Assembly: GCF_023022965.1 (NCBI RefSeq)
Contig: NZ_CP095462.1
Span: forward strand, 310,001 to 374,000
DNA from: Ectobacillus sp. JY-23
GTDB taxonomy: Bacteria > Bacillota > Bacilli > Bacillales > Bacillaceae_G
Reading direction: 5' to 3'
Length of the DNA: 64,000 bases
This document shows, piece after piece, positions 27,993 to 37,357 of this stretch. The notes under the pieces were generated by a model that was not told the DNA's origin, searched no databases, and saw only the letters and a list, made by a program, of their open reading frames with translations. Numbering within the stretch: the stretch's first letter is position 1; every line of letters begins with the position of its first letter. A program made the position numbers and the translations under genes.

Positions 27993-28715
27993 ATGGATTT
28001 ACATCAAATCGGTTTACTTGGTAAGGTATTTAAATTTATGATATTTTCTCTTCCGTGGGTTCTAGGCTTGGTGGGACTACATCAGTATTTATACACTAAG
28101 TTCCCTAAATACTATTTTTTTATTGCTAAAAAGTTTTCAAAATGGCGCGATACCAATTGGAATATTACGTGTATGTATACAGTTAAAAAGGATGTTGAAT
28201 TTTTTAAGGATTTTGAGGGTGTTATAAAAGAAGAATTTAATGAAATAAACCGTCCGTTTAACTTGAAAAACAAGAAACTGTATGGGTTTGGTGATTTTTC
28301 TGTTCAAGTACAATATGATTTAGACTTCAGTCAAACTGATTATGTAAGTGTGGAATTAATTTTTGCAAATGTTAATGTGACCATGGATACAGCCAACTAT
28401 AAGTTAAGGGTGTTACGTACGTTTTTTAATAGGCTGGAAAGAGAAATAGCGTTTGATAAAGTAACATACAATATGAATGTTAAGTTTACAAAAATGAATA
28501 ACCCGTTCTATGGATTGATGATACAAAGACTAGGAGAAGAACATGTCAATCATTTTGAGTGTGTTTTTCCTTTGTCTGTACTGACTAGAAGAGATATGAA
28601 TGACCCTGAAGCTGCTAAATATCAATTAAGAGTATTTAAGGAATATATATCGATAAATGAAAAGAATTTTGATAAAATAGAGACAATTGCAAAAAAAGTC
28701 TTATTACTGGGGTGA
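27993..28715 (+). CDS. Membrane-anchored accessory phage protein, unknown
   Basis: Protein of 240 residues behind AAGGAGGGG. One hydrophobic stretch lies at about residues 12-35 (VFKFMIFSLPWVLGLVGLHQYL); the rest is hydrophilic with beta-like segments (YGFGDFSVQVQYDLDF, VSVELIFANVNVTM). No family is recognised. It lies after the late terminator and is AT-richer than the structural genes, the usual profile of a moron expressed from the prophage. It is followed four bases later by an equally unknown gene. Confidence 0.7.
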   Translation: MDLHQIGLLGKVFKFMIFSLPWVLGLVGLHQYLYTKFPKYYFFIAKKFSKWRDTNWNITCMYTVKKDVEFFKDFEGVIKEEFNEINRPFNLKNKKLYGFGDFSVQVQYDLDFSQTDYVSVELIFANVNVTMDTANYKLRVLRTFFNRLEREIAFDKVTYNMNVKFTKMNNPFYGLMIQRLGEEHVNHFECVFPLSVLTRRDMNDPEAAKYQLRVFKEYISINEKNFDKIETIAKKVLLLG

Positions 28716-28719
28716 TTGT

Positions 28720-29388
28720 TTGATTAGCATCAATGTATACGATAAAATTTTTACCAATGAACAAGAACGTGAGCTAGGTACGGAGCACTTTGAAGAAAGT
28801 CGTTTTATTAATAACTTTGAAGAAAGATTAGAAACGTATATTATTCAAAACGAAGTGTCTCCAACAGGCTATCAGAACTTTCGAGTTATAACTGATGAAG
28901 TATATAACCAGACAGTTAGAGTAAGGGGGCAGGTAGTAGATCAAGTTATTAAACAAGAATTACATCAAGCCTATATAAAAGTGCGAAATCAACGTGCAAA
29001 TGGCGTAGGAAATTTGATAACATTGTGTCGAAAAGATGACTCATTCAAGGTAAAAGAAATCTTTGAAACACGCTTTAACTACAGTTATGAGAAGCATCGC
29101 TTTGATATTTTAGATATAATTGCAGCTTCTGCAGATGTAAGAGGAGCACGCTTTGATGTTCAGATTGAGACTGTACGTGGTGTAAGCATGAAAGGCACAA
29201 GAGTACATAATACGCAATATTATACTCAGATGTTAGCTTCGGGAGAGTTAACAGGTGTAATGCTTAACTATGATATGCCGGATAAAACGGTTACTTTCAG
29301 GATTTCTGTAGACGGATCTATACTGCTTTATACTAACCTTAGTGAGTATGAAATTTTAGAATTAGTAGAAGACTTACTGAATGTTTAG
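28720..29388 (+). CDS. Accessory phage protein, unknown, partner of the membrane protein
   Basis: Protein of 222 residues from the TTG at 28720, spaced correctly from GGGGTGAT; an in-frame TTG at 28687 lies inside the previous gene and has no ribosome site. It is soluble and charged, with ILDIIAASADVRGARFDVQIETVRG in the middle and a short C-terminal amphipathic helix (YEILELVEDLLNV). Not recognised. Probably made together with the membrane protein upstream, which suggests a two-component accessory function such as superinfection exclusion (inference). Confidence 0.65.
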   Translation: MISINVYDKIFTNEQERELGTEHFEESRFINNFEERLETYIIQNEVSPTGYQNFRVITDEVYNQTVRVRGQVVDQVIKQELHQAYIKVRNQRANGVGNLITLCRKDDSFKVKEIFETRFNYSYEKHRFDILDIIAASADVRGARFDVQIETVRGVSMKGTRVHNTQYYTQMLASGELTGVMLNYDMPDKTVTFRISVDGSILLYTNLSEYEILELVEDLLNV

Positions 29389-29871: not shown

Positions 29872-30324
29872 TCAAATTTCTAATAATTGTTTTTTCTTAC
29901 TGTTAAACTCTTCATCAGTTAAAATACCGCTATCACGTAAGTCAGCCAATTTTTTAATCTGCTCTGCTACATCAACCGTATTTTGAACAATTGTTGGAGC
30001 ATGGGACTCATCTATTTTTTGTTCAATGGCTACTTTTATTTGTTCAAAAAGGGGTTGCTGTTTTTTATTAAACATAATGGTATTCTCATCTTTGGTTGCA
30101 TCCATCAATCCGCCTTTATTTTCTTTACCTCCAGAAAAAGCAAATTGAATATACCCATTTGTGAAAAGGTTTGCTGGTTTGAACTGAATAGAAGAAATTT
30201 GTTTAACTAATATTTCCTTGTCACCCTTCAAACCTTGTGTCATCTTCGCTAGTACACCTTTTCTTTTGATGATAATCTTATTACCTACTAGCTCTAACTG
30301 CCCATTAACGCCAATTGCCTCCAT
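29872..30324 (-). CDS. SHOCT-domain protein (DUF4429/PH-like)
   Basis: Protein of 150 residues on the minus strand, ATG behind AAGGGGGATTATC. Residues 1-90 form a PH-like/DUF4429 strand region (GQLELVGNKIIIKRKGVLAK, GYIQFAFSGGKENKGG), residues about 95-120 a linker, and the end is a SHOCT module (AEQIKKLADLRDSGILTDEEFNSKKKQLLEI). SHOCT proteins are widespread in Bacillus and on mobile elements, usually as oligomerising tails; exact role unknown. It is transcribed towards the DPGxG gene. Confidence 0.85.
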   Translation of the reverse strand: MEAIGVNGQLELVGNKIIIKRKGVLAKMTQGLKGDKEILVKQISSIQFKPANLFTNGYIQFAFSGGKENKGGLMDATKDENTIMFNKKQQPLFEQIKVAIEQKIDESHAPTIVQNTVDVAEQIKKLADLRDSGILTDEEFNSKKKQLLEI

Positions 30325-30491: not shown

Positions 30492-30815
30492 GTGAACAAT
30501 CAGGAGCTTATCCAACGACTAACAGAATTGAATCAGGAAATCAGTAAAACAGAATTGGCGTATTATGATACGCTTCATAAAATCAAAGAAGTGGAGTATA
30601 CGATCCAGGAGAAAACCTCGCAATTGCTGCTAAGCGGTAAGATTGACGGGAAAACAGAGAAAATTCGTGATGCGCAGCTCTTTCCGCACATGAAGAATCT
30701 GCTGCTGGAAAAGATAGAAGCAGAAAAAGAAAGTGACCGAAAAAAAGAGCGCTACTATGCAAAGAAGCGCGAAGCAGTCCATATCCAATACATCATTCGT
30801 TTATTGACTCCGTAA
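30492..30815 (+). CDS. Coiled-coil phage/plasmid protein
   Basis: Protein of 107 residues, GTG start behind GATGGAGGTGGG. It is almost entirely helical and charged (ELIQRLTELNQEISKTELAYYDTLHKIKEVEYTIQEK), with a basic C-terminal third (KKERYYAKKREAVHIQYIIRLL). No family recognised. Upstream at 30455-30469 is an inverted repeat GGTGA-GCGAG-TCACC. Its last 23 bases overlap the end of the convergent HTH gene. Confidence 0.65.
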   Translation: MNNQELIQRLTELNQEISKTELAYYDTLHKIKEVEYTIQEKTSQLLLSGKIDGKTEKIRDAQLFPHMKNLLLEKIEAEKESDRKKERYYAKKREAVHIQYIIRLLTP

Positions 30816-31032
30816 CGGGGTCTTTTTTATTTTCCACCAAAGGTATCCATATTTCTTCAACAGGTAACCCTAACTCTTTTGCAATAATATAAGCATTTGT
30901 CAGACTAGGTAATGCCTGATTATTCACTAAAGAGCTTAATGTTGTTCTGCTGAGTTGAACCTTTTCTGCGAATACAGTCTGCTTAATATTCCTCTCTGCA
31001 AAAATAACCTTCAAACGACATATAATCTTCAT
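30793..31032 (-). CDS. XRE-family (Cro/CI-type) regulator
   Basis: Seventy-nine residues from the ATG at 31032 on the minus strand, with GAGGTGAAGG upstream. The HTH is clear: RLKVIFAERNIKQTVFAEKVQLSRTTLSSLVNNQALPSLTNAYIIAKELGLPVEEIW. It diverges from the actin-like gene across a 203-base region with repeats and probably regulates itself or that module. Its 3' end runs 23 bases into the convergent coiled-coil gene. Confidence 0.88.
   Translation of the reverse strand: MKIICRLKVIFAERNIKQTVFAEKVQLSRTTLSSLVNNQALPSLTNAYIIAKELGLPVEEIWIPLVENKKDPVTESINE
30806..30828 (+). terminator. Terminator inside the convergent overlap
   Basis: GACTCCG and CGGGGTC form a 7-bp stem with loop TAA, followed by six T. 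The stop codon of the plus-strand gene is the loop. Confidence 0.8.
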
Positions 31033-31096
31033 TTCCTTCACCTCGTAGCTATATTTCGGTAAACTTCATAGCTTATCCTGTTAAAAAATGACGATA

Positions 31097-31206
31097 TGCA
31101 CGTACTTTTTTAAGTGGTACATGCAAAATGTGTAAGCGTGTGTCATACATTTTAATACACAGTTGCTACACGGATTTGACACCATCACACAGATGTGTAG
31201 CATATG
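31097..31206 (+). promoter_or_regulatory. Candidate parC/centromere and par promoter
   Basis: The region between the divergent XRE and actin genes holds an imperfect inverted repeat (TGCACGTAC at 31097-31105, GTACATGCA at 31117-31125) and a perfect one: TGCTACAC at 31164-31171 with GTGTAGCA at 31195-31202. TTGACA (31176-31181) and TAGCAT (31198-31203), 16 bases apart, form a promoter whose -10 lies in the second arm. Repeats around the promoter of an actin/adaptor operon are the usual arrangement for a centromere bound by the adaptor, which also represses the operon. Confidence 0.5.
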
Positions 31207-31235
31207 TGCCACAATAGTGAAAAGGATGGGATAGA

Positions 31236-32072
31236 ATGAACATCATTACGCTTGATGCTGGCAACAACGAAGTAAAGGTAGCAACGGCAGAGGGTGTCTT
31301 TTCGTTCAATTCATTTTTAGGAGAAGCGCGAGATCGTCGTCTTGAGTCTCAATATGAAGATGAAATGATTGGTGTGTACAATGGAATGCCATTCTTCGCA
31401 GGTGAACTGGCACAGTACGAATCGGAATTCCCACGCAACTCTATGGGGCTTTCCAAAGCACATGAAGATGCCAAGTTAAGGATTCTCATCGCTTTACATC
31501 GTTACAGCAAGCATTACGATAATCATATTGTGGTAGGGCAACCAATTGAAAGCCATAAATCAGAGGAGAAACTACGGATTAAAGCGATGTTGGCGAAAGA
31601 ACACCGTCTTGTGTTAAATGGTGTAGAGAGGAAATTCTATATTCATAATACCGAGGTAGCACCAGAAGGAGCTGCAGCGTACTGGAGCTTACAAGAAGAG
31701 TTACCTGTTGTTCATATCGTCGATGTGGGCAGTGGCACAGTGAATATTGCAACGATTCGAGAAGGGCAATTCATCGATAAGGAAAGCTTTACATTACCGT
31801 TTGGTGCTGAATCCACCAAGACAAAGGATATGCAGGCTATGAGTTATGGTATTATTTCGGCCCTAAACCGCTTTAATCGTCAAGACTCATATCGAATCGT
31901 TGGGGGAGCTGCAGAGAAAGTGAAACCATATTTACAAATGCAGTTTCCAGATTGTAAAGTCATTCATCCTCTTGTAAAAGTCGGTACCAAAGTCATGTCT
32001 GTTCATCCAAAATACGCAACAGTTGTTGGTATGTATCATATTGCCAAGGCGGTGTACGGTTATGAAGGATGA
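31236..32072 (+). CDS. AlfA/ParM-like actin-type segregation ATPase
   Basis: Actin-fold protein of 278 residues that should form filaments driving DNA segregation. Phosphate loop 1 is LDAGNNEVKVA at the N-terminus, loop 2 is VDVGSGTVNIAT near residues 165-177, and the adenosine motif is RIVGGAAEKVKP near residue 224. The length is close to AlfA (about 275) and shorter than ParM (about 320). The adaptor gene overlaps its stop by 11 bases and repeats lie upstream, the three parts of a type II partition locus. Such loci belong to plasmids; one inside a prophage is unusual. Confidence 0.88.
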   Translation: MNIITLDAGNNEVKVATAEGVFSFNSFLGEARDRRLESQYEDEMIGVYNGMPFFAGELAQYESEFPRNSMGLSKAHEDAKLRILIALHRYSKHYDNHIVVGQPIESHKSEEKLRIKAMLAKEHRLVLNGVERKFYIHNTEVAPEGAAAYWSLQEELPVVHIVDVGSGTVNIATIREGQFIDKESFTLPFGAESTKTKDMQAMSYGIISALNRFNRQDSYRIVGGAAEKVKPYLQMQFPDCKVIHPLVKVGTKVMSVHPKYATVVGMYHIAKAVYGYEG

Positions 32073-32346
32073 AAATCGCTTGTTTAAAAACGTTTCTTTT
32101 AACCGAAAGGATTCCTTTGAAATGCAACTGTATCACCATGCGAAACAACAAGGTATGTTCGCAAAATACGTAAAACGACTTATCCAGCGCGATATGGAGC
32201 AGGCACATAGTTCAGCGCAGTGTGCGCCTTTACAACCAACACCGCAACCTTCCTTTACGCCTCCTGTAGAACAAAAACAAACTCCTCCCGTAATCGTACG
32301 AGAAGAGCCAAAAGAGAAAAAAGTATCTATGTCATCTTTTATTTAA
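32062..32346 (+). CDS. AlfB/ParR-like centromere-binding adaptor
   Basis: Protein of 94 residues from the ATG at 32062, inside the end of the actin gene. The N-terminal half (LFKNVSFNRKDSFEMQLYHHAKQQGMFAKYVKRLIQRDME) looks like a ribbon-helix-helix DNA-binding fold; the second half is Pro/Gln-rich and disordered, ending with a short basic VSMSSFI tail that may contact the filament. Length, fold and position match AlfB/ParR. It probably binds the repeats at 31097-31206. Confidence 0.75.
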   Translation: MKDENRLFKNVSFNRKDSFEMQLYHHAKQQGMFAKYVKRLIQRDMEQAHSSAQCAPLQPTPQPSFTPPVEQKQTPPVIVREEPKEKKVSMSSFI

Positions 32347-32438
32347 CGTGTGAGGGTAATGAGATCCGCAATAATTTTTAATACCAGCAATGTTGTTCCA
32401 GAGCCCACGAGAATTTTCCCAAGTAATACGAACGGCAT
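32343..32438 (-). CDS. 31-residue hydrophobic peptide on the opposite strand
   Basis: On the minus strand, AAAGGGGG lies eight bases before an ATG that encodes MPFVLLGKILVGSG followed by TTLLVLKIIADLITLTR and a stop. It is a single strongly hydrophobic helix with a short polar end, like type I toxin or small membrane regulatory peptides. Its stop overlaps that of the adaptor gene on the other strand. It sits between the partition operon and the pilin-like gene. No known toxin family is matched, so the function is open. Confidence 0.45.
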   Translation of the reverse strand: MPFVLLGKILVGSGTTLLVLKIIADLITLTR

Positions 32439-32497
32439 AAACGCAGCCCCCTTTTCTTGTTGTACCTATATTATTTACAAAAAGGGAGAGATAATGA

Positions 32498-32878
32498 ATG
32501 GCAAAAACTGTGACGTACAGCTTCGGTGAGTTTATGAGCGGTGAGTATAAGAACAAGAAAAAACAACCAAGTCCAGCATTACATGCCGTGGGTTTGGGAA
32601 CAGCATTGACGTTCGGTGGTTTGCATCCCGTATCAGCAATGGACACGACAGCACGTATTATCAGCGCATTTGATCCCATCATTAGCCTGGTGCAAGGTGT
32701 AGCCTATCCTGTTACGTTCCTGATGATTGGCGGCGGCTTTCTACTTATTATTATGGGGCAACGAAGCAAAGGGCTTTCCATGATTAAGTGGGCGGCAGTC
32801 GGTTATATCGGTTTACAGTTTGCACCATCCATTATGCAAATCTTGGTTGAGGTAGGAAAGGCGATGGTGACGAAATGA
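32498..32878 (+). CDS. VirB2/TrbC-like membrane (pilin-type) protein
   Basis: Protein of 126 residues. After about 25 basic residues there is a signal-like segment (ALHAVGLGTALTFGGLHPVSAMD) and two further hydrophobic helices (VAYPVTFLMIGGGFLLIIM and MIKWAAVGYIGLQFAPSIM) separated by a basic loop, the layout of VirB2/TrbC pilins of type IV secretion. The ATG follows AAAGGGAGAGA. Its stop overlaps the start of the large ATPase (ATGA), so the two are made together. Assignment is by topology and neighbour. Confidence 0.6.
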   Translation: MAKTVTYSFGEFMSGEYKNKKKQPSPALHAVGLGTALTFGGLHPVSAMDTTARIISAFDPIISLVQGVAYPVTFLMIGGGFLLIIMGQRSKGLSMIKWAAVGYIGLQFAPSIMQILVEVGKAMVTK

Positions 32879-35052
32879 AGCATATGCGGATCATGCCGGA
32901 TAGCCGCTTAGAAAACGGAAGGGTAGAACATTTTGCACAGTCCTTATGCAGTTACCGCTCCATGTTGGAACGTTTTAATAAGGAAACAAAACGCTTAGAT
33001 GCCAATTTCTTTTCATGGGAAATTATGCTTGAGCCAAAGAACACCAGCTTTCATATTACGTTACCAACAGATGCGGAACGAATTGTACAAAAAGCGGTTC
33101 ATTCTTCTTGGCCACAAGTGACTGTGCAAGAGCAGGAAGATATTCTGCATACTTTTACACCCACACTCACATCGGTTATGGAGATGAGACACCATTATTT
33201 CTTAGCGATGCGTGTAGATCGGAGGGGCAACTGGTTAAATTCGTTACTTGAGGTCCTGAACATCATGCAAGAAGGTGACAAAGTCGTCATTCAAGTGTTC
33301 AGTGAGCCAGCGTTTCATGATTGGTACGTGCCAGCAACGGATGCTTACACGCAGTTTAAAAAAGGAAGTATGCCCCAGCGCCTGCGTTTCACAAAAAAGG
33401 ATATGGTGCAGTCAACGGTGAAAGCAGCTGCTTATGTTACGTTTGGTGCCATATCTATCGTAACAGAGATACTCACAGGGGAAGAACCGGAAAAGGTGGA
33501 TTTATCCGCAGGCGAACGTGGGATGATTCTTAGAGACGGTCCCTTACGTCCGGAGACTGTCCAGAAGACACGAGGAGACGCATATGACGTGAGTATTAGG
33601 ATTGGTATCCAAAGCCCAAATACGAAGCAAGCGCACCTGTTAAATCGCGCTGTTAGTACAGCATTCCGAGAGTTTGATGGAGATAACCAATTACAGAACC
33701 GTATCACGAACACAAAAAAGACATTCTCTCTAATGAAAGAACGTCGCAAAGGGTTGAAGCTAGCGTCTGATTACATGTCTATTCCGGAAATAGCCCGATT
33801 ATTCACATTGCCGCCATTATCTCTACAAGAAAAGTATCATATCCCAGGCATTAAGCTCCAGGAGACAGAGGTGGCAGCTACATTATTTGAAGGTGGTTTA
33901 CTTCTTGGTGAACAAACACACCGTGGTGAGACTAAACAAGTGTATATGCCGACAACAAATTGGGATGAACTTTGCCTGCCGGTCTGTGCGATCGGTGGCA
34001 TGGGGCAAGGGAAAACAGATGGCTTTGGGGCAAATCGTGTAGTAGAAGCGGTGAGAAATGGATTTGGCGCCATGTTCATCGACCCAGCTAAACATCAGGT
34101 GAGCGAACAGGTGAAGAAGGTATTACAACCGGACCAATATGAAATTATCAATATCAAACACTTAAAACCTTCTTTTGATTGGTGTGAGGCACAGTACAGT
34201 GAGTATGGGAAGGGGCTACTCGCTGATGCAGTTCTTTCCTTCTTTGAAGATTCATTGGAAGATAGCGTGCAAACAGAGCGGTATTTACGGGCGTTTATCA
34301 TGGGTATGCAGACCGCCAAACTTAACGAGATATTCCGTATCATGGAGGACATGAACTACCTGGAGGAGGTTGCTGAGAAGCTTCCAGACGGGATGCACAA
34401 AACCACACTCATGCAGTTTTCTAAAGAAAGTGAGAACATGCGGATGAAGATTGTAAAGCCTATCTATAACCGCATGGATATGATTATGGGAGATTCTTTT
34501 ATGATGGAATGTTTCCATAGTGATGTATCACTTGACTTCGTGAAACTACTTAGTCAAAAGAAAGCAATCATTATTGATGTGGCTAAAAAGGATGGACTCA
34601 CGCCGAAACAAATCAATCTGATTGGTAATCTCATCATGACTAAGGTGAACCTGGCAATGCAAATGAGGAAAGAAGAAGATCAGTTTCCGTTCTTTGTACT
34701 GATTGATGAACCGCACCAATTTAACCGAAGTGCGAAGCTATGGGAGAGTATGGCGGTAGAAAGTCGGAAATGGCGTGTGGGGTTCGTGTGGCTGTTTCAT
34801 TACTGGGATCAGCTGCCGAAGCAAGCACAAAGCGCAGTGAAAAACGCATTGCCGCATTATCATTTGTATCCAACATCAAAAGAAACCTGGCTAAAGTTTA
34901 AAGAAGAGATCGCACCGTTTGATTTGGCGGACTGTTTCAATTTAAAGAGATTCCATGCAATTAATATCCTGCGTATTGGTGGAGAGTCTACTAAGCCATT
35001 TGTCGCACATATGGCAGCTCCGCCTATTATGAGGTTAAAAAGAAAATGCTGA
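32875..35052 (+). CDS. HerA/VirB4/TraC-like DNA-transfer ATPase
   Basis: Protein of 725 residues. Walker A GMGQGKT is at residues 375-381 and Walker B FFVLIDEPHQF near 605. The C-terminal RecA-like half also shows GNLIMTKVNLAMQMRKEE and WRVGFVWLFHYWDQLPKQAQ, as in HerA/FtsK-type motors used in conjugation (VirB4, VirD4, TraC). The N-terminal 330 residues hold several alpha/beta segments without clear identity and a weak hydrophobic stretch near 190. With the pilin-like gene before it, it looks like the ATPase of a reduced type IV secretion or DNA-pumping device. An FtsK-like role in phage DNA segregation is an alternative. Confidence 0.75.
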   Translation: MKHMRIMPDSRLENGRVEHFAQSLCSYRSMLERFNKETKRLDANFFSWEIMLEPKNTSFHITLPTDAERIVQKAVHSSWPQVTVQEQEDILHTFTPTLTSVMEMRHHYFLAMRVDRRGNWLNSLLEVLNIMQEGDKVVIQVFSEPAFHDWYVPATDAYTQFKKGSMPQRLRFTKKDMVQSTVKAAAYVTFGAISIVTEILTGEEPEKVDLSAGERGMILRDGPLRPETVQKTRGDAYDVSIRIGIQSPNTKQAHLLNRAVSTAFREFDGDNQLQNRITNTKKTFSLMKERRKGLKLASDYMSIPEIARLFTLPPLSLQEKYHIPGIKLQETEVAATLFEGGLLLGEQTHRGETKQVYMPTTNWDELCLPVCAIGGMGQGKTDGFGANRVVEAVRNGFGAMFIDPAKHQVSEQVKKVLQPDQYEIINIKHLKPSFDWCEAQYSEYGKGLLADAVLSFFEDSLEDSVQTERYLRAFIMGMQTAKLNEIFRIMEDMNYLEEVAEKLPDGMHKTTLMQFSKESENMRMKIVKPIYNRMDMIMGDSFMMECFHSDVSLDFVKLLSQKKAIIIDVAKKDGLTPKQINLIGNLIMTKVNLAMQMRKEEDQFPFFVLIDEPHQFNRSAKLWESMAVESRKWRVGFVWLFHYWDQLPKQAQSAVKNALPHYHLYPTSKETWLKFKEEIAPFDLADCFNLKRFHAINILRIGGESTKPFVAHMAAPPIMRLKRKC

Positions 35053-35356: not shown

Positions 35357-36220
35357 GTGGTTAAAATAATTATTAAAAGTCTTGAGAACATAAATTTGCA
35401 AGAGTTTACAATTTGCTTTAATGACGCTTTCTCTGATTATATAATTCCGTTTAAAGTATCTCCGCATTATTTAGCTGAAAGATTCACAGGTGCAGGGGTT
35501 CATTATAATTTATCATTTGGTGTATTCAGTGAAGATAAGCAGGTAGCCTTTATTATGCACGGAATTGAAGAACACAATGGTGAAAAAATAGCTTTCGATA
35601 TTGGTACAGGAGTTATTCCCTCATATAGAGGTAAGCGTCTTGTGGCACAAATCTATAATCATGCTATTCCTATTCTGAAACAACATAATGTTCAAAAATG
35701 CTTATTAGAAGTTATCCAGACGAATGAAAAAGCTATTAAGGCTTATAACAATTTAGGGTTTCAGATAAAGCGAGAACTTTCCTGTTTCAAAGGTAGTATT
35801 CGGATTGATCTACCCCCCTCCACTACTCCTGAACATATATGTATAACCACTGTTAGTCCAAACAAATTTGATTGGAGCATAGTGCATGCTTTTTGGAACT
35901 TTGAACCCTCTTGGGAACAATCTGTTCAGGCTATATTACGTAATCCACACTTATATGATGTGATTACGATAAGTGAACAAAATACTATATGTGGATATGC
36001 TGTAATCGATTCAAAACAAGGGAGGATCCTCCAATTTGGTGTCCTTAAGGAAAAAAGAAACCAAGGCTTTGGTCACTCTTTATTTCAATGGATTGGGAAA
36101 AGACATTCAATAATCTCGATCAACAATGTAGACAAGTACGATATAGAGTCTATACGTTTCCTAAAAAAGATAGGTCTCAATATACACATCGAACAATATG
36201 AAATGGAGAAAACTTTATAA
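35357..36220 (+). CDS. GNAT-family N-acetyltransferase
   Basis: Protein of about 287 residues. The N-terminal GNAT domain contains DIGTGVIPSYRGKRLVAQIYNHA and YNNLGFQIKREL; the C-terminal half (VIDSKQGRILQFGVLKEKRNQGFGHSLF...FLKKIGL) is a second, partial GNAT fold. Substrate unknown. Start choice is difficult: the only regular start is the GTG at 35357, which overlaps the ribosome site GAGGTGG; the site is better spaced for ATA or ATT at 35366-35371. It may be cargo at the prophage end or chromosomal. Confidence 0.82.
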   Translation: MVKIIIKSLENINLQEFTICFNDAFSDYIIPFKVSPHYLAERFTGAGVHYNLSFGVFSEDKQVAFIMHGIEEHNGEKIAFDIGTGVIPSYRGKRLVAQIYNHAIPILKQHNVQKCLLEVIQTNEKAIKAYNNLGFQIKRELSCFKGSIRIDLPPSTTPEHICITTVSPNKFDWSIVHAFWNFEPSWEQSVQAILRNPHLYDVITISEQNTICGYAVIDSKQGRILQFGVLKEKRNQGFGHSLFQWIGKRHSIISINNVDKYDIESIRFLKKIGLNIHIEQYEMEKTL

Positions 36221-36616: not shown

Positions 36617-37357
36617 TTAAAGGGTGGTAAAGCTTGGTGATGTAATGATTTTCAACCACTCTGGTTCGTAAGCACCAATCGGCATTAAAGCAATATCAAT
36701 TTGAAATCGTTCGTGTATATCATGAAAGCCTCGGAAATATCCAGTATCCCCGCAAAAATAAATCGTTTCTGACTCGTTCTTCATCACCCAGCCCCCCCAG
36801 TGTGAGCGGTTTAAATCAAATGGTGTACGGCGCGTCCAATGCTGTGCGGGTACAAAGTGAAATCTTACATGGTCTATAGTAGTCGATTCCCACCAATTGA
36901 ATTCCTGCACCCTTGAAAAGCCTTTACGAAGAAATATCTTCTTCATTCCAACTGGAACGAGATATAACACGTTGGGTGGTAGTTGACGAATTGTTGCAAA
37001 ATCCAGATGATCGTAATGACCATGTGATAATAATACAATATCGATAGGAGGTAATTCAGAAAGTAACAAACCGGGTTTTGTTAGCCTGGGTACAATCTTT
37101 AAGCGTTCAGACCACACGGGGTCCGTTAGAATATGTAAACCTTGCATTTGAATGAGAAAGGTTGCATGACCAACCCAAGTTACTGTAGTTTCTTGTGTGT
37201 TTTGTTGTAGAAATGTAGCTTTTTTGTTTGAACAGTGAGGAATGGTTTGTGAGTAATCTTTCTTTTTGCTGCTGCGCTCTCTTCGCCACCGTAAATACGT
37301 AAAAAGAGATTTGGTTGTTTGGACATCGTCCATATTTTTATACTTTTCTCCCATCAT
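36617..37357 (-). pseudogene. Metallo-beta-lactamase-fold hydrolase, 3' truncated
   Basis: The 246 residues belong to the UlaG/NAPE-PLD-like metallo-hydrolase family (COG2220). Present are the N-terminal VTWVGHATFLIQMQG, the zinc motif LLSHGHYDHLD, PAQHWTRRTPFD and YFCGDTGYFRGF. The family normally runs past 300 residues and has a last metal-binding His in a PMHWGTF-like motif. Here the protein stops just after IGAYEPEW with an unrelated tail (LKIITSPSFTTL). The missing end coincides with the prophage boundary, so integration or a later frameshift probably inactivated the gene. The 3' part may lie at the far left end of the prophage. Confidence 0.7.

Follow-up and report, generated by a model that had tools for sequence, protein, structure and literature searches.

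Why does a bacterial prophage carry an actin-type partition pair directly beside a VirB2-like protein and a conjugation-type ATPase? These genes lie in a stretch of 64,000 nucleotides from the chromosome of Ectobacillus sp. JY-23 (NZ_CP095462.1; G000:C1:310001-374000 of the 3.89-Mb single-contig genome), which is called the window here and whose numbering is used below. A first reading, made from the letters alone (the sequence-only reading), had proposed a phage-plasmid, or a captured device that moves DNA or anchors the lysogen. We find that the genes belong to a module that recurs among phages. In our estimate there is a probability of about 0.5 that this module is a membrane DNA-translocation device of the phage, built from type-IV-secretion-like parts. 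It is probably a tool with which the virus moves its own DNA at the membrane and not a plasmid leftover, because related sets are present in other Bacillus viruses, including ones that are never dormant.

The four core genes

The four genes flagged by the sequence-only reading are all intact open reading frames (ORFs) on the forward strand, with unchanged coordinates. The first gene (31236..32072) encodes an AlfA/ParM-type actin-like protein of 278 residues, which matches Pfam ALP_N (PF17989, 3.3e-18, exceeding the family cut-off), phrog_691 ('partition protein', 1.1e-41) and the AlfA structure 6f95 in the PDB (1.3e-9, covering residues 6-233). The possibility that this protein lacks the actin fold, raised in the sequence-only reading, is not borne out, the family match by sequence being strong. 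Directly 3' of actin and overlapping it by 11 nt, the ORF beginning at 32062 (32062..32346) encodes a small adaptor of 94 residues, with a putative ribbon-helix-helix (RHH)-like fold and a hydrophobic C-terminal SFI tail (families A5/A6). The third gene (32498..32878) encodes a VirB2/TrbC-like protein of 126 residues, composed of a leader with an FMSGE motif, an AxA-like site and hydrophobic helices (family A2; PF04956; phrog_5422, 1.2e-29). It shares an ATGA overlap with the start of the fourth gene (32875..35052), which encodes a HerA/VirB4/VirD4-type ATPase of 725 residues. Between the window and the copy in Ectobacillus antri, a single pair, dN/dS is well under 1 for all four genes (actin 0.014, VirB2-like 0.022, ATPase 0.064, adaptor 0.18).

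The actin and adaptor resemble the plasmid partition pair AlfA/AlfB, in which AlfB lies directly downstream of AlfA: the actin family, the length and the position of the small adaptor are alike. Unlike AlfA/AlfB, the pair of the window sits on a chromosomal prophage and is linked to a motor.

The ATPase resembles conjugation and HerA motors

The ATPase matches PHROG 5156 (2e-191) and no Pfam or NCBIfam family. Predicted models were compared with known structures using VIA-align, which gave the ATPase fold 27.3 with TrwB, 26.9 with VirB4, 24.7 with HerA and 16.4 with FtsK. Among the 50 matches listed, the alignments extending over 533-540 residues, N-terminal half included, are those with two TrwK/VirB4 entries and with the whole R388 secretion system, whose matched chain we take to be VirB4. 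Sequence identity between the window ATPase and the conjugative ATPases VirB4/TrwK and TrwB is 10-14% in the best structural matches. Locus L042, whose stretch hits a stop, was omitted from the ATPase alignment. Profile comparison gave 98.5% for HerA, 97.3% for VirD4, 93.1% for VirB4 and 2.4% for FtsK, with 0.1% for a column-shuffled control; an FtsK-like motor is ruled out by these values. Searched against structures, the ATPase profile found TdpA (3e-4) and HerA (0.02).

Recurrence of the module among phages

By tblastn the ATPase was detected in 65 phage records, a number in which some phages are counted twice. A single-sequence scan of viral contigs with the window ATPase gave no match; the alignment as query gave at least 77 further viral loci, and the scan of genome contigs found E. 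antri only. From 96 ATPase loci, 20 with less than 2.5 kb upstream and 20 at 90% identity or more to a kept locus were removed, leaving 56 for counting. Eleven loci had earlier been excluded by hand as partial copies or for having no ATPase (five of these, which have actin, were examined again afterwards), and the loci from SPO1, Microcystis and Staley, a later addition, stand outside the 56. Gene profiles were iterated on the same loci as counted, with E up to 1e-3.

A VirB2-like gene is present in 51 of the 56 loci, an adaptor in 41 and both in 36, whereas actin occurs in 20 (19 with adaptor). In addition, an M23 gene is found in 15 loci, at most 400 nt from the ATPase in 13 of them, and a second membrane protein in 21; several loci have the M23 domain in a single open frame with the second membrane protein. 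The shared order is actin, adaptor, VirB2-like gene, M23/membrane protein where present, and ATPase. These counts agree with the sequence-only reading that an actin-type partition pair stands beside a VirB2-like/conjugation-type ATPase pair, as do the ALP_N and AlfA matches. The counter-case it had named, an ATPase that is always FtsK-like and lacks a pilin partner, is contradicted by the 51 VirB2-like partners and by the profile.

Chance neighbourhood of unrelated genes is rejected for adaptor, VirB2-like gene and ATPase, given the 36 loci that unite them. For actin the rejection is less certain, because actin-adaptor pairs also occur alone. TP-84, vB_BpsM-61 and 035JT001 have adaptor, VirB2-like gene and ATPase, with no actin found upstream. 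On a quick ATPase tree, with long branches and only a piece of the ATPase of genome G016, the actin label requires 13 changes (11 forced), the shuffles having a mean of 16.6 and being as low in 10 of 500; actin has therefore been gained or lost repeatedly. Actin and adaptor pairs without the ATPase are also located on large plasmids. One plasmid labelled Arthrobacter citreus (L102, CP053689) has an actin relative (38% identity) of a kind otherwise met in Bacillales; its host label may be wrong.

Versions in D6E, SPO1 and PJN02

The deep-sea thermophilic phage D6E (NC_019544; gp22-gp23 and unannotated genes) has the same order after its lysis genes: actin, adaptor, antisense microprotein, VirB2-like gene, ATPase and integrase. 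It differs from the window in having two adaptor paralogues, the second following the first. Identity with the window is 49% for the ATPase and 43% for actin. D6E is a Geobacillus phage according to the available part of one report (PMC5727402).

In SPO1, gp27.4 is a family ATPase (3e-143), and module profiles identify gp27.9 as an actin relative (8.5e-17) and gp29.1 as a VirB2-like relative (6e-12). In the adaptor position stands gp27.8, which the adaptor profile did not match. A relationship links SPO1 gp27.3 with PJN02 gp22 (61.6 bits when three sequences were compared, and 1e-11 by tblastn across the entire set of phages), and PJN02 gp22 matches Pfam Replic_Relax (5e-11) above the cut-off. 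This Replic_Relax-type gene adjoins the ATPase in both phages. The SPO1 locus (L137 2250-8307) thus appears as a rearranged module, genes 29.1 and 27.9-27.3, with a relaxase-like gene. It has in common with the window the VirB2-like protein, actin, small membrane proteins and ATPase. It differs from the window in the relaxase-like 27.3 and in belonging to a virulent phage, which is called strictly lytic in the accessible text of a published report (PMC9429907).

PJN02 and a circular 162-kb record deposited as a plasmid (NZ_CP076118) both contain actin, adaptor, small proteins, ATPase, Replic_Relax-type gene and recombinase, in the same order; no VirB2-like gene was detected in PJN02. From the SPO1 and PJN02 versions it follows that both temperate and virulent phages bear the module. 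The gene order that the sequence-only reading proposed to look for elsewhere is found in D6E and other phages, and the circular record has the PJN02 version. The combination, which the sequence-only reading took to be undescribed, is not new as sequence. The full order is already in D6E, and parts are annotated singly in public records, SPO1-type pieces as 'partition protein', 'plasmid replication-relaxation protein' and 'VirD4 component-like'. The literature searched, which did not extend to the SPO1 genome paper, yielded no account of the module as a whole.

The adaptor tail accompanies actin

The adaptor model contains two confident helices, 18-29 and 33-53. The last two residues are hydrophobic in 18 of the 19 adaptors located directly behind actin, against 0 of 25 other adaptors (Fisher 2e-11). 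The motif was first spotted by eye in the alignments A5/A6, and this main test is thus partly after the fact. An earlier, looser hold-out included near-copies. In a strict hold-out, restricted to loci outside the first-seen alignments and not over 90% like those, the motif is present in 7 of 8 actin-coupled and 0 of 9 uncoupled adaptors. D6E and two other loci have one adaptor of each tail type. A C-terminal actin-binding peptide is known from ParR, and the simplest reading of these tail statistics is that the adaptor tail is such a peptide.

A putative microprotein encoded antisense to the module

On the opposite strand, a putative membrane microprotein of 31 residues (MPFVLLGKILVGSGTTLLVLKIIADLITLTR; 32343..32438, minus strand) lies between the adaptor and VirB2-like genes, proposed from positional conservation and codon changes. 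A hydrophobic antisense peptide of 20-40 residues with a ribosome-site-like stretch is found at this position in 25 of 36 loci, against 1 of 36 in the sense-strand control and 0.4 expected from shuffles, the filter having been chosen after a first look at the list. D6E differs from L058, and likewise from L029, by 9 synonymous and 0 non-synonymous changes over 25 codons; L072 and L087 differ by 8 and 3 over 22 codons, and the window and E. antri by 4 and 2 over 31. The picture is less clear for two pairs that stand further apart (10 synonymous and 8 non-synonymous; 7 and 6). The D6E and TP-84 records list no minus-strand feature at the microprotein position.

Past the antisense unit, inside the adaptor gene, lies a terminator-like hairpin (32280..32309, minus strand) with a 13-pair stem and a T-run (dG -16.7). 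Terminator-like sites in the region number 5, where shuffles give 3.3 (sd 2.1). Across loci, 15 of 31 have a hairpin with T-run after the microprotein, whereas single-base shuffling predicts 2.9; in this count some loci (L005, L010, L048) enter with a different small ORF from that of the microprotein count, or with one where that count had none.

Proposed function and alternative explanations

If the module is a membrane DNA-translocation device, the RHH-like adaptor would bind sites on the phage DNA and, where actin is present, its hydrophobic tail would dock on actin filaments, which may bring the DNA to the cytoplasmic membrane or hold it in place there. The docking and positioning are suggested by the tail statistics and by the precedent of AlpAC. 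The VirB2-like protein would form a membrane conduit, in many relatives together with a second membrane protein that possibly bears a wall-cutting M23 domain. The VirB4/TrwB-type ATPase, as its predicted fold suggests, may drive DNA through or along this conduit. The microprotein might, at a guess, be a further membrane subunit or a regulator. The module would serve phage growth and not maintenance of the lysogen, because virulent phages carry it. Anchoring the lysogen, one of the roles offered by the sequence-only reading, cannot be its general job, since the core is also present in virulent phages.

In the Corynebacterium prophage CGP3, AlpAC likewise places a prophage actin and a DNA adaptor in one operon with an upstream regulatory region, and AlpC carries phage DNA to the membrane and aids replication, as described in the part of the report available to us (PMC4446434). 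The same text states that the AlpAC gene order is unlike that of ParM-ParR, in which the motor gene comes first; the window has actin first and therefore does not follow the order alpA then alpC. Unlike the window, AlpAC has no pilin or pump ATPase mentioned in that text (PMC4446434).

Several observations weigh against a translocation device. The VirB2-like protein matches TrbC/VirB2 (PF04956, 7.7e-5) and T4SS_pilin (2.3e-4) below the Pfam cut-offs, and its profile found no PDB relative. The adaptor model has no PDB match by VIA-align, RHH_9 matches 1 of 29 adaptor family members, and the adaptor profile found nothing credible among structures. No VirB2-like gene was detected in 5 of the 56 loci and no adaptor in 15. 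The order also has exceptions: an actin relative lies downstream of the ATPase in L090, two loci have a lysin-like M23 gene outside the block, and SPO1, unlike the window, has the VirB2-like gene before actin. Moreover, actin is present without ATPase or VirB2-like gene in 5 of 5 loci, namely PVJ1, Lietuvens and three plasmids (about 7 kb around, 15-kb stretches), 4 of which have the adaptor. Because the actin-adaptor pair is also found without the ATPase, actin may have come to the module as a cassette of its own. Unlike conjugative type IV secretion systems (T4SS), the window, together with the left-hand stretch L016, has no match to the SPO1/PJN02 relaxase-like proteins (other relaxase families being outside this search) and none to the M23 relatives; because these were not found there, the window copy may be a reduced or a different device.

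It is possible, though doubtful, that the module is only an anchor for replication and segregation, with adaptor, actin and ATPase holding and sorting phage DNA at the membrane, the VirB2-like protein as tether and no passage. This would agree with AlpA and AlpC being needed for efficient phage replication and bringing DNA to the membrane, according to the accessible text of that study (PMC4446434), and with TP-84, in which the module genes directly precede recombination and replication genes. However, a mere tether needs no VirB4/TrwB-type motor, and the M23 wall-hydrolase domains (13 of 56 loci) and the Replic_Relax-type gene of SPO1 and PJN02 speak for transit across the envelope. The phage-plasmid of the sequence-only reading, in which an extrachromosomal lysogen would be partitioned and would spread by a conjugation-like route, is improbable. 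The circular record NZ_CP076118 and the actin relatives on other large plasmids would fit it, but the core is present in virulent phages such as SPO1, and the window copy is chromosomal, in a 41.4-kb prophage that has a tyrosine-type integrase and whose 14-bp core repeat splits a host gene; for this copy the proposal is not supported. Least probable is superinfection exclusion or host take-over, in which membrane proteins and motor would keep out or eject DNA entering the cell, or would target the chromosome of the host. Such purposes are often served by small membrane proteins of phages, the module is found in temperate and virulent phages alike, and HerA-type motors occur in anti-phage complexes (from titles of structure entries), but the linked adaptor, actin and relaxase-like gene would be left unexplained.

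The bearers raise a further alternative, that the device moves the phage genome into the forespore to be carried in the spore, which we consider unlikely. Entrapment of phage genomes in spores is on record, as the available part of the source describes (PMC9429907). Sorted by the opening word of the organism name, the 64 phage records that contain a gp27.4 relative comprise Bacillus 52, Geobacillus 5, D6E 2, Lysinibacillus 2, and Alicyclobacillus, Brevibacillus and Microcystis 1 each, and are thus nearly all named for spore-former genera (Bacillus, Geobacillus, Lysinibacillus, Alicyclobacillus, Brevibacillus). SPO1-type capsids range far wider: of the 620 records that have them, 343 are named for Staphylococcus, 69 for Enterococcus, 55 for Listeria and 27 for Lactobacillus, and none of these genus names is among the 64. 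Moreover, Spo0A is present in 27 of 27 Bacilli genomes with an ATPase match, but 325 of 398 Bacilli genomes have it anyway, and several of the 27 matches cover only part of the ATPase model and may be other HerA/VirB4-type proteins. The Microcystis phage MaeS, with ATPase and adaptor-like gene, and the Brevibacillus record, titled Staphylococcus phage MRSA107 (unverified), also speak against it. The host tally fits a link to spore-formers and is confounded by descent; the Spo0A enrichment is weak.

A bolder form of the translocation reading would be that a recurrent T4SS-derived module (adaptor, VirB2-like conduit, VirB4/TrwB-type motor and antisense microprotein, with an actin rail as an option and, in some, relaxase and wall hydrolase) enables tailed phages that infect spore-formers, among them SPO1, to pass their genome across a membrane with no virion involved, either to a neighbouring cell or to the forespore. 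We offer this tentatively. If the module does move phage DNA, SPO1, a classic virulent phage, and many prophages possess a relative of the conjugation machine that has gone unnoticed, which would link phage growth, DNA segregation and horizontal transfer. The role of SPO1 29.1 and 27.9-27.3 becomes directly testable in B. subtilis, and an actin-binding tail and a conserved microprotein are predicted.

The region upstream of actin

A divergent helix-turn-helix (HTH) regulator of 82 residues (30793..31041, minus strand; PF01381, 1.1e-10) precedes the actin gene. Between them, an inverted repeat (31158..31208; arms 31158-31171 and 31195-31208, without chance estimate) surrounds a promoter-like TTGACA-16-TAGCAT (31176-31203) and is a possible operator or centromere. 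The upstream repeats around a promoter described in the sequence-only reading therefore stand in part: the inverted repeat does flank a promoter-like site, but promoter-like sites (10 against 11.0 in shuffles) show no excess, and the repeats 5' of actin are not above shuffles, 8 of 60 shuffles having as many in the most favourable of four tests. On this ground a centromere role for these repeats is not supported. Iteron-like arrays lie 5' of actin in 2 of 4 relatives tested (0 of 60 shuffles in their best test), and the other two have none.

Further upstream, a gene for a 107-residue protein (30492..30815, plus strand; phrog_31827, 5e-7) has similar genes adjoining the module in E. antri and in G016, the likeness in G016 being judged by eye. 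A gene for a DUF4429 and SHOCT protein (29872-30324, minus strand) lies immediately upstream of the module region.

The prophage and its boundaries

The element is a chromosomal prophage of about 41.4 kb, because two exact 14-bp repeats have the ends of a split host gene outside them, and the frame is open in genome G003. The core repeat AACCACTCTGGTTC lies at contig positions 305,280, beside the integrase, and 346,654, the right junction (36654..36667). The left side contains a tyrosine-type integrase and HTH regulators (L016:10411-13743), named from sequence features. The ends of the host gene, which is presumably metallo-beta-lactamase-fold-like, lie at window 36617-37357 and L016:10028-10279, outside both repeats, and G003 has an uninterrupted frame of 327 residues with a 68% match to the window piece. 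The module is located at the prophage end opposite the integrase and would therefore lie near it once circular, as in D6E.

The genome has no second ATPase copy, the sole match being that of the window. The ATPase is present in 5 of 19 genomes of the host family. In E. antri, which carries the module, it is 96% identical and the downstream genes differ; in the G016 prophage (L018:10809-13046) it has an in-frame stop.

The final prophage gene before the right junction (35357..36220, plus strand) encodes a GNAT acetyltransferase, identified by Pfam, and is possible cargo. Past the endolysin, two genes (27993-29388) have no Pfam match above the cut-off, and the second matches phrog_18260 (1e-63).

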